Below, one piece after another: positions 24,425 to 28,226 of a DNA stretch of 64,000 nt. Within the stretch, counting starts at the first letter, position 1, and every line of letters starts with the position of its first letter. Source of the DNA: an uncultured Clostridia bacterium (GTDB lineage Bacteria; Bacillota; Clostridia; Oscillospirales; Acutalibacteraceae); assembly GCA_947166625.1 (NCBI GenBank), contig CAMVEX010000002.1:1-64000 (forward strand), read 5' to 3'. Both the position numbers and the translations under genes were made by a program. The notes under the pieces were generated by a model. That model did not search any database. It was not told where the DNA came from and worked only from the letters and a program-made list of their open reading frames with translations.

Positions 24425-24829
24425 TTAAGCAAAGCTGAAAAGATTACCAATACTCATCATGGTATTATAAAGAAAGTCGCGGAACGCTCTGACGGCATTC
24501 TGAAACAAATTGCCTTCGGGCTTAACCGGGGTAAGCGAGTTTGTGGTTATGTCGCGAACTCCCATACGGAAATATTTTTCGGCAGTCTTGACATCATCTG
24601 CAATCCAGACCATTGTTTTAAGACCGGATTTTTGAGTGAGCCTGACCCATTCCCTGCCCCACACAAAAGCAAAATCAACACCGTCAAGGCCGTTGTCAAG
24701 AGCAAACTGCACCGTTTGGCTGAATTCTTCTCCGGGAGCTCCGCCTATGATTATATAGACGGGTGTTTCGGGCATAAGCTTTTTGATGCTTGCACAAATC
24801 TCTCTGTCAAAAGAGATGATTATAAACAT
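24425..24829 (-). pseudogene. C-terminal remnant of a glycerophosphodiester phosphodiesterase
   Basis: A 134-codon frame matching only the last half of a GDPD barrel: a VSSFD-like strand (IIISFDREICASIKKL), LDGVDFAFVWGREWVRLTQKSGLKTMVWIADDV and the terminal GVRDITTNSL motif. The N-terminal HRG and ExD catalytic motifs are absent. A promoter (24875-24903) and a GGAGG SD with ATG at 24842 remain upstream, but that ATG is in another frame and reaches a stop after 11 codons. This fits a 5' deletion that removed the active site. It might still be expressed as a fragment, but no enzymatic function is expected. Confidence 0.7.
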
Positions 24830-25214: not shown

Positions 25215-25670
25215 TTACATAATTTGACCATATGCAACATCATATTCACCATAGTATAAGTTTAATGCGACATCAGTATACTCAATGAATTCACCATATT
25301 CTCTCCGCGTGGATTCATCAACGACAAAACCGAAATTACCTAATTTTATTGTAATTATGCTGTTACTCAAGAGCTTTTCGAACAATCCAAAAAAGTGATT
25401 TCTATGTTCGAATGACTGCTTTAGAGATAATCCATTCGCATTTTCAGAAAAAAGGTAGTTGCCCTTTGATATATATTTTTCATCACGACTGTAAATGGAA
25501 AGAGTTTTTATTGGTATTATACTGTTTTCTTTAGTTAAACCATTTCTTTTTATTAAATCGATGGTTTTGATAAAACTATCATCTGAATAAAAAAATATGT
25601 CCTTGATCGTTTTATCCTGGTTGATAAGTTTTAATTCTCCTTGAAAAGGATTCTCGTAATCGATTGCCAT
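25215..25670 (-). CDS. Orphan protein of unknown function
   Basis: A 151-residue protein I do not recognise. It has no signal peptide or membrane segment, is rich in aromatic residues, Ile and Asn, and its base composition is clearly AT-richer than the flanking chromosome. The ATG at 25670 follows AAGGAGAGG, so translation looks real. Its end (EYTDVALNLYYGEYDVAYGQIM) and small size are reminiscent of the soluble single-domain proteins found beside secreted effectors, but no such family was identified. It lies last in the AT-rich cluster, 16 bases after the decayed tail of the neighbouring gene. Confidence 0.6.
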   Translation of the reverse strand: MAIDYENPFQGELKLINQDKTIKDIFFYSDDSFIKTIDLIKRNGLTKENSIIPIKTLSIYSRDEKYISKGNYLFSENANGLSLKQSFEHRNHFFGLFEKLLSNSIITIKLGNFGFVVDESTRREYGEFIEYTDVALNLYYGEYDVAYGQIM

Positions 25671-25686: not shown

Positions 25687-26669
25687 TTATGAGATATCTA
25701 TCCAAATTGCAGGTCGAACTGCATTTGTATTTTCGTACCATCTATTGTATTCGCTTAAGTAATACTTTCCTGAATAATCACCATAATAAAAGCAATTAAT
25801 GCAGCAACAATCGGACCGCCTATGATGGCTGTTTTTTTGTAAAGCGCCTTTTTCTTCTCGGCGGCAATTCGTGCCTCTTCCGCCTTGCGTTTGCGCTCTG
25901 CTTCTGCCTTTTCCTCGGCAATTATTATCTCTTGGATTTTAGCATTGCACTCGTCAATTTTAGTGTTGCTATCCTTCCAGTCAATAATTGATTCAAAATA
26001 TTCTATTGCTTTTTTGCAGTTTTCTTTTTTGCCTTTTGAAAACTCATCAAGCGCCTTGTTATAAATGCCGTCTTTTTTCAGCACTTTAGGATCAACCGAA
26101 ATCATTTCGATTATACTATTGCCACAGGAAAAACATTTCTCACTGTGGTTTATAGCTCCGCATGAGCAGATAAACAAGTCTCTGTATTTTTGAGGCAAAT
26201 ATCTACAGTTAATTCCAAATTGCTTTTTTATCTGATAAATTTGATCTTCATCATAATTAGCGTTTAATTCTTTAATTTCAGGGATTGAAACTGCCTGTGA
26301 AAAGTCCGCCTCATATGAAGTATCATCACAGAAGATAATCTTTATATTATCTGCCGAAAAAGATCGGGTTCCGGCATTATTCAAGAAAACAGGAATTTTA
26401 GCGCCGATTTCTTCATTGAAGTTGCAGTTTAAGTCAAGATACTCATAAACAATCTTTTCGCCGATATTATTCTTTTGTACATCGTAACCGGAAAATGAAG
26501 CAATAACAGCTTTTATAGTTTTATCACTTATATTCTTGATCTTCAACTGAATAAAGACTCTGCCAGTTTCATTATCCTTTGTTATAGCGCCGGCACTGAT
26601 AACAACAGGAGAACCGACTACATACATGTTTTTATCAAGTTCAAACAGACGCTGATATCTTTCAGACAT
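25687..26669 (-). pseudogene. Zinc-ribbon membrane protein with decayed DUF6273-type C-terminus
   Basis: The intact frame (26669-25755, 304 codons) has a beta-rich N-terminal domain (about 1-130) and a cysteine-rich zinc ribbon (FICSCGAINHSEKCFSCGNS, near 170). It then has a tetratrico-like helix pair (LDEFSKGKKENCKKAIEYFES), a charged EAERKRKAEEARIAAEKKK coil and one membrane helix near the end. Right after the helix a different frame reads KYYLSEYNRWYENTNAVRPA then IWIDIS and stops at 25687. That matches the closing segment (VRPAxWxxxS) typical of DUF6273 domains that follow such a helix. A deletion with frameshift most likely removed the domain. The truncated protein may still be made. Confidence 0.65.
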
Positions 26670-26683
26670 ATTTTAATGCCTCC

Positions 26684-27001
26684 TTATATTTCGGGAATGT
26701 CATCCATTGCCGGTTTTGAAATAGCGGTGGCTGTTTTACCTTCTTTTATGTTATTGGAACCACACTCTATGTTGTCGGAAATAGATTTCAGATATTCAAG
26801 TGTTTCAGCTATGGCATAGAAGAATAATGGCATAACCAAAGCACTGAATAAACCGACAATTACCGTTCCTATGCCGATGCCGATGAATAGTTCTTCATCT
26901 GCTATACCAAATATAAACATTATAATTCCGCCGATGATTTCAAGGATTCCCACTACAACTAATCTTTTTGCAATTTTTCTGAAATTTGGTGCTACTGACA
27001 T
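26684..27001 (-). CDS. Small two-helix membrane protein
   Basis: A 105-residue protein with two hydrophobic segments, about residues 12-33 (LVVVGILEIIGGIIMFIFGI) and 38-65 (GIGIGTVIVGLFSALVMPLFFYAI), and a hydrophilic tail ending in MDDIPEI. No family is recognised. A strong SD (AGGAGAG) precedes the ATG at 27001. It starts 14 bases before the zinc-ribbon gene and is the first gene downstream of a structured leader with a terminator, so its expression may be set by transcription attenuation. It is AT-rich like its neighbours. Confidence 0.6.
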   Translation of the reverse strand: MSVAPNFRKIAKRLVVVGILEIIGGIIMFIFGIADEELFIGIGIGTVIVGLFSALVMPLFFYAIAETLEYLKSISDNIECGSNNIKEGKTATAISKPAMDDIPEI

Positions 27002-27056
27002 AATAACTCTCCTTCAATTTTATTATATTAGCCGTCTTGACGACAGCTTATAAAAC

Positions 27057-27083
27057 AAAAAGTGCGTAGCCGAAGCTACGCAC
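27057..27083 (-). terminator. UUCG-capped terminator inside the leader of the AT-rich cluster
   Basis: On the minus strand a perfect 9-base-pair stem GTGCGTAGC / GCTACGCAC closed by a TTCG tetraloop, followed by TTTTTGTTTT. Its 5' arm (27083-27075) can alternatively pair with 27098-27090, which would prevent the terminator. It lies 60 bases before the ATG at 27001. Confidence 0.85.
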
Positions 27084-27224
27084 GAAAAACGCATAGCTCT
27101 GACTGTCGCCAAACAAAACCGACACACGATGACCGTTCAAAGTATGCGGATACAGAGTATGCATTTTTACCCAAAGACAAAAATACACACCTTGAACAGT
27201 CAATAATATTCGGTTTTGTTTGGC
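27062..27224 (-). ncRNA. Structured leader RNA, candidate riboswitch/attenuator or small RNA
   Basis: A minus-strand RNA of about 165-175 nt, beginning where the promoter predicts. P1 is 15 perfect pairs (27224-27210 with 27122-27108). P2 is 12 continuous pairs (27201-27190 with 27142-27131), with G-U wobbles only if read on minus. P3 is 10 pairs (27188-27179 with 27168-27159). A GTAT-CCGC-ATAC mini-hairpin sits beside P3. Downstream of P1, 27101-27091 can pair with junction bases 27162-27153 (10 pairs, one bulge). Alternatively 27098-27090 pairs with 27082-27074 (9 pairs) to form an antiterminator that excludes the UUCG terminator. No sequence motif of a known riboswitch class is recognised. 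Confidence 0.6.
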
Positions 27225-27230
27225 AAGAAC

Positions 27231-27260
27231 AGTATAACATAAAGAAAATATATAAATCAA
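27231..27260 (-). promoter_or_regulatory. Sigma-A promoter of the structured leader
   Basis: On the minus strand TTGATT (27260-27255), an 18-base spacer and TATACT (27236-27231). Initiation 7 bases downstream falls at 27224, exactly the first base of helix P1. Confidence 0.75.
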
Positions 27261-27351: not shown

Positions 27352-27389
27352 AGCCGGACTTCTAATCATTTACGATTAAAAATCCGGCT
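27352..27389 (-). terminator. Terminator-like hairpin
   Basis: A 7-base-pair GC-rich stem AGCCGGA / TCCGGCT extended by an imperfect AT-rich stem with a short loop. On minus it is followed by TTTTGCTGTTT. It is probably the end of the tRNA-Gly transcript or a guard before the island. Confidence 0.55.
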
Positions 27390-27555: not shown

Positions 27556-27629
27556 TGGAGCAGGGTACGGGAGTCGAACCCGCCGCTGAGGCTTGGGAAG
27601 CGTCCGTATTACCGATATACTAACCCTGC
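27556..27629 (-). tRNA. tRNA-Gly (anticodon CCC)
   Basis: A 74-base tRNA with encoded CCA and discriminator T. The acceptor stem is GCAGGGT / ACCCTGC, the D stem GTAT / ATAC, the anticodon loop TTCCCAA and the T arm GCGGG-TTCGACT-CCCGT. The anticodon stem GACGC / GCCTC has a C-C mismatch at its middle pair (29-41), which is unusual. All other features are normal. Confidence 0.93.
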
Positions 27630-27743: not shown

Positions 27744-28202
27744 TCAGCCTTTAACAGCCGAAATGATGGTCTTACCGAGAGCTACGATCTCACCGAAATC
27801 AACGCCGGCAAAGAGAGCCTTTACAAGGCTTACAAGACCGCCGAAAAGATCGCCCCAAGCTACGCCCTTAACTGCTTCAAAGAGCTTGCCGCCGTAATAC
27901 TTAACATAGCCGATGGTGCTGTAATCGCCATTGTGGGGGCAATTGGCAACGTGAAGATCATAAGCTTCTTTGGTAGCAAACTGCTCGCCGCAGCCGCCGT
28001 CTTTGTAATCATCGCCGGTATAGGGGCAGGTTACAAAGTGACCGTTGGTGAAGTTATAGGTCTTCATATGCTCTGTGTAAGCGGCCTCAGTGGTGAAGGT
28101 TTCACCGCAATAGGGGCACTTTGTCTCCCATGCGCTTGCCATTACGGACATAGCGGAGAGAACGAAAAGAACTGCAAAAAATACCGAAAGAACCTTTTTC
28201 AT
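27744..28202 (-). CDS. Secreted protein with C2H2 zinc-finger-like motifs
   Basis: A 152-residue protein with a clear signal peptide (MKKVLSVFFAVLFVLSAMSVMASA). The mature part has two C2H2-like units: CPYCGETFTTEAAYTEHMKTYN and CPYTGDDYKDGGCGEQFATK then YDLHVANC. They carry the aromatic and spacing pattern of zinc fingers. The C-terminal 45 residues are hydrophobic/amphipathic (LFGGLVSLVKALFAGV). The ATG at 28202 has AAGGAAG 8 bases upstream; an in-frame codon at 28238 lies within the leader. Zinc fingers outside the cell are odd; metal binding is inferred. It is a single gene with a near-consensus promoter. Confidence 0.75.
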   Translation of the reverse strand: MKKVLSVFFAVLFVLSAMSVMASAWETKCPYCGETFTTEAAYTEHMKTYNFTNGHFVTCPYTGDDYKDGGCGEQFATKEAYDLHVANCPHNGDYSTIGYVKYYGGKLFEAVKGVAWGDLFGGLVSLVKALFAGVDFGEIVALGKTIISAVKG

Positions 28203-28226
28203 CGTAAAACTTCCTTTTCTGAGATT

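Follow-up and report, generated by a model that had tools for sequence, protein, structure and literature searches.

A Multicopy RNA With Competing Terminator and Antiterminator Pairings Is Probably a Transcription-Attenuating Leader of a New Family

Which RNA might be made at the AT-rich island of a 64,000-nucleotide stretch of bacterial DNA (the window, throughout), and what would it do for the genes behind it? A reading of this locus made from the sequence alone had proposed an undescribed riboswitch or attenuator leader, with a free-standing small RNA as the alternative. The island is real, with a G+C content of 0.35 at 25–27 kb compared with mostly 0.45–0.53 elsewhere in the window. We find one structured RNA of about 165 bases on the minus strand, running from 27224 to 27055, which folds to −72 kcal/mol; the mean of 200 shuffled versions is −39.8 kcal/mol and none of the 200 is as stable (z −8.61). 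The opposite strand gives −53 kcal/mol, as expected if the odd pairs are G-U on the transcribed strand, as the sequence-only reading had noted, and was rejected as the RNA on this comparison. Also rejected was a leader peptide: The open frame 27048–27260 spans the element, no Shine-Dalgarno sequence was noticed for it, and in the single other copy that was compared, by eye, the corresponding frame closes early (L002). The promoter proposed upstream is present (table 1), with P1 starting 7 bases after its TATACT hexamer, and is weak evidence by itself, given that a consensus scan of 1.2 kb found 7 such sites versus 4.0 expected. Of 142 copies of the element (see below), 115 have their top-scoring −10-like hexamer at one fixed place, ending 6 bases ahead of P1, and a −35 TTGA was seen by eye, uncounted, in upstream sequences. 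A 17-pair terminator-like hairpin with a T-rich tail (27352–27389, minus strand) lies between tRNA-Gly(ccc) at 27556–27629 and the element, and probably separates the two transcripts.

Table 1. Features of the element and of the genes behind it, in window coordinates.
Feature	Position	Strand	Basis or detail
Promoter-like TTGATT - 18 - TATACT, TG before second hexamer	27231..27260	-	Consensus scan
P1, 5' strand; predicted first transcribed bases	27210..27224	-	15 perfect pairs with 27122-27108
P1/P2 internal loop, 5' side, conserved AUA	27203..27209	-	Conservation, unpaired probability
P2, 5' strand	27192..27202	-	Fold; pairs with 27140-27130
P3, 5' strand	27179..27190	-	Position and swap test
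A strand: P3 loop end (GG), P3 3' strand and bulge CUCUG	27153..27171	-	
P2, 3' strand	27130..27140	-	Fold, pairing
P1, 3' strand	27108..27122	-	Fold, aligned copies
Linker from P1 to tail, conserved CA	27102..27107	-	C and A each at least 90% in 184 copies
A' strand (tail), pairs with A or with 5' half of terminator	27084..27101	-	
Antiterminator hairpin, alternative to A-A' and to terminator	27073..27099	-	10 pairs, −12.1 kcal/mol
Intrinsic terminator: 9-pair stem 27083-27075 with 27070-27062, UUCG loop, U-tract	27055..27083	-	
First gene, 105 aa, hydrophobic stretches, AAGGAG before ATG	26684..27001	-	ORF; no Pfam match above cut-off
Second gene, 304 aa, same direction	25755..26669	-	ORF; no Pfam match
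Third gene, 151 aa, same direction	25215..25670	-	ORF; no Pfam match above cut-off

The architecture previously read from the sequence is recovered almost unchanged. The 15-pair first helix (P1) has no mismatch, two further helices (P2 and P3) follow, and both the UUCG terminator and the antiterminator pairing are found where they had been placed, the latter as a 10-pair hairpin. A third pairing exclusive with these, between the strands that we designate A and A', turned out to be longer than described: It joins 27168–27153 to 27101–27085 in 16 pairs with one bulged C (−17.3 kcal/mol). The same strands are thus contested by P3, A-A', the antiterminator and the terminator. Within the rod formed by P1–P3, the bulge positions UCUA have a mean unpaired probability of 0.75–0.85, and the bulge CUCUG is a probable toehold. 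The end states of the window copy lie about 1.5 kcal/mol apart (terminator form −72, antiterminator form −70.5 kcal/mol), and runs of two programs disagree on which of the two is lowest; taken as isolated hairpins in 184 copies, the terminator has a mean advantage of 3.4 kcal/mol over the antiterminator.

Six more copies, unnoticed in the earlier reading, occur in the same genome. A covariance model finds 7 at E ≤ 0.001, the window copy included, and an E limit of 1 adds four weak matches, all lying opposite copies already known. Within its own genome, blast placed the element at six sites, 73–84% identical in the matches; it also located the element in 34 of 99 relatives, own genome included. 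From the first 35 loci we aligned 31 (alignment A1), leaving out L020, L029 and L039, which have large insertions or a deletion, and the degenerate L021. The covariance model R1, built from P1, part of P2, P3 and the terminator and excluding A-A' and the antiterminator, matches 26/45 genomes of the genus. With 7 candidates scored per genome and strict filters, so that copy counts are lower bounds and absences soft, it further matches at least 142 of 394 sampled genomes of the order (74/169 genera), at least 98 of 391 sampled genomes of the class (three of these 98 from the same order) and a single one of 398 in the phylum sample, namely the genome of the window; the last figure speaks for the specificity of R1. 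In 20 genomes picked for many matches there are 7 to 29 per genome, some few of them perhaps echoes from the opposite strand. The element was also met in two named records, one from an uncultured Clostridia bacterium and one from a Eubacterium sp., which is no measure of distribution; the class is probably Clostridia. For the comparisons below, 142 copies were pooled from two match sets, one of 76 (18 of 94 matches dropped, 17 on the opposite strand plus L021) and one of 66 (2 of 68 dropped, one repeat and one partial copy); a further set of 45 matches lost 3 repeats. The central 90% of the 142 copies are 152–175 bases long.

A viral or plasmid element was considered and rejected: A pattern scan of IMG/VR gave 0 matches, a phage set contained only two unverified faecal scaffolds, and no plasmid matched. 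The two phage-labelled scaffolds carry full copies (L172:2077-2230 and L173:4112-4267), before a lipoprotein-like and a zinc-ribbon-like protein, respectively, and may be bacterial contigs.

The element belongs to no class that we could name. A survey of 2017 reportedly contained 224 candidate RNAs. At gathering score, Rfam 15 recognizes only two tRNAs in the window, with nothing in the element, and one tRNA in 18 loci with other copies; the T-box model has no match at that score in the window or the 18 loci. Neither does the 6S model match there; 6S RNA is usually present in one or two copies per genome, and the genome of the window has 7 copies of the element. Relaxed E-values brought up AaHKsRNA41 (25.7 bits, gathering 97, E 0.00045) and Trp_leader (20.9, gathering 41) at L082, MIR4227 at L018 (23.7 bits, gathering 100), and Bp1_738 on the opposite strand of the window (17.8 bits, gathering 45), all far below gathering score. 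A known Rfam family was rejected as the identity of the element. This is a real and widely conserved RNA family absent from Rfam 15. No published description of the element was found in search listings of open-access literature or in passages of PMC6429828. PMC8040213 reports 3161 automated RNA predictions from the human microbiome, and the family may be listed without a name in the supplementary tables of that study.

Covariation between copies is strong in part of the structure. In A1, 97.0% of the 1076 cells of P1, P2, P3 and the terminator are paired and 16 of 35 pairs have changed on both sides; none of 500 shuffles reaches the observed value on any of five measures, and slid versions of the structure give 31–56%. 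The sequence-only reading had singled out P1–P3 and the antiterminator for this comparison, with a divided result in the 31 copies. P1 (11 modelled pairs, 97.9% paired, 7 of them double-changed) and P2 (6/7 pairs changed on both sides in the segment adjoining P3) covary strongly, double-changed pairs are fewer in P3 (2/8) as in the terminator (1/9), and the antiterminator, though 93.0% of its cells are paired, shows no excess of covariation. Run unaided, RNAalifold recovers three of the elements (P1, P2 and the terminator) and counts 17 double-changed pairs. Two of the outcomes that had been named as speaking against the reading, a hit to a known Rfam family and an absence of compensatory changes, were looked for, and neither occurred.

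The A-A' pairing is also seen in these data. Its cells in A1 are 96.8% paired (of 462), with 10 double-changed cells compared with 2.6 in shuffles (0/500); two of the five measures are unexceptional (double-change pairs 43/500, further pair types 56/500). Ranking all column pairs of the 142 copies by mutual information places a P1 pair first (3-105, z 20.1) and a P3-loop base with a tail base second (consensus 51-131, z 11.4; G-C in 111 copies, A-T in 13), and gives z 7.5 for the A-A' pair 59-124; as column pairs without structural meaning reach z 6.5–6.9, it is 51-131, and not 59-124, that stands far above background. When 184 copies are considered, these two positions read G-C in 147 and A-T in 18. 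P3 leaves the first of them, in its loop, unpaired, and the antiterminator likewise has the tail base in a loop, so that only A-A' explains their covariation.

A swap test on the 184 copies, which like the covariation statistics ignores the relatedness of copies, gave a mean A-A' energy of −16.4 kcal/mol for own strands versus −14.0 kcal/mol with foreign tails (0/5000 permutations), and −14.75 versus −11.06 kcal/mol for P3 with its own and with foreign 3' strands. Own partners are favored for P1 (z −34.7), P2 (−32.1), P3 (−19.6), the terminator (−23.0) and the antiterminator (−8.8), each with 0/2000 permutations, and three control strand pairings show nothing (249, 1515 and 270 of 2000). It should be noted that selecting copies by R1 favors P1, P3 and the terminator, and does not favor A-A' or the antiterminator. 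Among 14 comparisons between tandem or sibling copies, a clear advantage of own tails is seen only at L218 and L088 and in three L154 pairs; four others are equal and the rest near equal or mixed.

Alternative base pairing accounts for nearly all of the sequence that is strongly conserved. The five A positions of the A strand take part in U.A.U alignments of P3, A and the tail in 155, 173, 178, 176 and 146 of 184 copies, with variable neighbors; a triple helix would fit this, and so would the constraint that A must match two partners. Little conserved sequence is left unpaired: AUA in the P1/P2 loop, its three bases each at least 90% conserved in the 184 copies with a mean unpaired probability of about 0.7, and CA after P1. 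Both are candidates for sensing or hinge parts.

As the earlier reading had anticipated, most homologous copies are followed by genes. A Shine-Dalgarno sequence and start codon occur within 65 bases of the U-tract in 112/142 copies, compared with 1910 of 20000 random positions (9.6%) in the same loci, leaving 30/142 copies without them; in the window, the ATG at 27001 is 55 bases after the end of the U-tract. We collected 107 downstream proteins (start within 150 bases, Shine-Dalgarno sequence, at least 50 aa; cut at 380 aa). They match 52 Pfam families in all and show no single shared pathway: BspA-type leucine-rich repeats (LRR_5) occur in 25/107, and other matches are to double zinc ribbons (5), AMP-binding enzymes (4) and EcoRI methylases (2). 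By a crude rule, 72/107 have a signal-like N-terminus versus 225/533 in a control set of other frames with a Shine-Dalgarno sequence from these loci, among which the downstream genes are also counted. Defence genes were rejected as the targets, PADLOC matching few of the 107 (most frequent MTase_II, 2). EcoRI-type adenine methyltransferase genes lie directly behind the element at L090 and L037, most other targets being surface or secreted proteins.

Comparison of these sequences establishes the family, its helices, the coevolving competing pairings and the place before Shine-Dalgarno sites. On this basis, we consider it likely that the element is a terminator-controlled leader RNA (a transcription attenuator) of a new family, which would decide by strand exchange during transcription; it is most likely a transcription on/off switch before many genes, often those for surface proteins. 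We infer the order of events and the ON and OFF assignments as follows. Transcription would start at the first base of P1, and P3, P2 and P1 would zip into the rod during synthesis. A' is made before its antiterminator partner and can therefore invade at the bulge first: The emerging strand would enter the rod at CUCU and proceed through P3 into the P3 loop, forming A-A'. With A' so held by A, the adjacent terminator would fold and transcription would stop after about 165 bases (OFF). Where the rod resists and P3 stays closed, A' would instead pair with the 5' half of the terminator as the antiterminator, and the polymerase would read into the gene (ON). A signal, which could be a protein, an RNA or a ligand on the rod, would presumably tip the balance. 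It counts against the model that A-A', if formed while P1 and P2 persist, would be a pseudoknot spanning the whole rod and would need a sharp bend. A more elaborate form of this model, to which we give little credence, sees a class-wide family of natural toehold switches in which the nascent tail enters the distal end of the rod by strand displacement, in which the A-A' pseudoknot carries a U.A-U triplex, the displaced U5 strand of P3 lying in the major groove of A5-U5 next to the terminator, and in which strand exchange in trans between sibling copies would let gene-less tandem copies tune a set of surface-protein genes.

A short copy of 105 bases (L029:1458-1562) lacks P2 and P3, hence the A strand, and retains P1, the −10 box and the terminator with the tail; it precedes a gene with a signal-like N-terminus and offers a natural, ready-made comparison for the switch model.

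The wider claim of a riboswitch or attenuator leader is supported in its attenuator part, with terminator, antiterminator and third pairing all present, and less so in its riboswitch part. A metabolite or ion riboswitch, in which the rod with its AUA loop, CA linker and U-rich bulge would be the aptamer and a ligand would stabilize either the rod or A-A', strikes us as possible and still improbable. The exclusive terminator and antiterminator in a 5' leader, as predicted from sequence, follow the expression-platform logic of known riboswitches, small conserved unpaired elements exist, and the narrow length range suggests a tertiary fold. However, the sequence of P2 is variable, little conserved sequence is unpaired, no Rfam riboswitch matches at gathering score, and the targets (LRR surface proteins, AMP-binding enzymes, EcoRI-type methylases, zinc ribbons) share no pathway, which is unusual for a metabolite sensor. 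In our judgement, targets so diverse point to a dedicated RNA-binding factor or some general cue rather than to one metabolite.

The copies arranged in tandem are the main evidence for a role in trans or of dosage, and against a pure leader. Two copies each are found at L112, L169, L088 and L216–L222, and four, one of them partial, at L154, spaced by about 50–160 bases. By eye, each complete tandem copy printed has a −10-like box just before it, and the upstream copies mostly run into the −10 box of the next copy and not into a gene, so that a trans-acting role is also possible. At L112, L169 and L222 the upstream copies keep a remnant of a Shine-Dalgarno sequence and start. At L220:511-980 there are two copies, and a repeated AT-rich stretch, identical in kind for both, stands behind each with no gene directly following; this is seemingly a small repeat array. 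That the element is a free-standing small RNA, stable, with its 5' end in a helix and with its own promoter and terminator, acting in trans (for example by protein titration or by pairing with other copies), its genes being read only by leakage, is in our view unlikely. Its structure is intact in these mostly gene-less tandem copies with their own −10 boxes, a single genome has up to 29 matches, and the A of one copy is often able to pair with the A' of another. Yet 112/142 copies directly precede a Shine-Dalgarno sequence and start, A-A' pairs best in cis overall, the terminator and antiterminator coevolve, and Hfq was found in 0/45 genomes of the genus, although not every small RNA requires it.

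An attenuator run by a known antitermination protein (LoaP, a CAT/RAT-type protein, or an ANTAR protein such as EutV) would share the genomic logic of leader, terminator and operon, and ANTAR proteins occur in 26/45 genomes of the genus; nevertheless, LoaP (NF033641 cut-off) and CAT_RBD (at cut-off) were each found in 0/45 of these genomes, and ANTAR is present in 17/26 carriers of the RNA and missing from 9, several of which are incomplete assemblies, making this very improbable. LoaP, CAT_RBD and Hfq were accordingly rejected as partners. A mobile repeat of MITE or REP type, with an inverted repeat and no regulatory role, would account for a multicopy, patchy and palindromic element (with weak opposite-strand model matches) present on two unverified faecal "phage" scaffolds, but is scarcely credible given that copies within one genome differ by compensatory changes and are 73–84% rather than nearly identical, that their position relative to promoter and Shine-Dalgarno sequence is fixed, and that full pairing exists only on the transcribed strand.

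The putative attenuator can be set beside several known systems. SAM-I, purine and T-box leaders have an anti-antiterminator, antiterminator and terminator architecture, and the element is similarly a 5' leader with its own promoter, three exclusive pairings and an intrinsic terminator before a gene; it differs in that its conserved sequence lies in the competing strands, in the absence of a recognizable aptamer, and in targets that share no pathway. Fluoride, preQ1 and SAM-II riboswitches are pseudoknotted switches, and here too loop and stem bases pair with a downstream tail, although over about 16 pairs, which replace the helix P3 and would span a long rod. EutV/ANTAR leaders together with the small RNA EutX/Rli55 are structured leaders with sponge RNAs, comparable with the leader copies and gene-less copies of the element; unlike them, 9/26 carriers of the element have no ANTAR protein, and no dual-hairpin site was identified in it. 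The ToxI RNAs of type III toxin-antitoxin systems share the order of promoter, structured RNA, terminator and gene, whereas the element has no toxin family common downstream and no short tandem repeats of the 36-base type.

The element would rank among the larger unlisted regulatory RNA families of gut bacteria. The BspA-type surface proteins often found behind it serve contact with the host and the community. As three alternative pairings coevolve in each copy, decision by strand exchange is a model that can be tested, and the trigger of such a switch is a clear target for ligand or protein searches.

Two frames on the minus strand near the element were also noted. At 24425–24829, a 134-aa frame matches only the C-terminal part of the GDPD family; lying at the edge of the AT-rich island, it probably represents a truncated gene. 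The small protein encoded at 27744–28205 begins with a hydrophobic stretch in its N-terminal part and has a zf-C2H2 match (E 4.9e-07), a type of zinc finger that is unusual in a bacterium.
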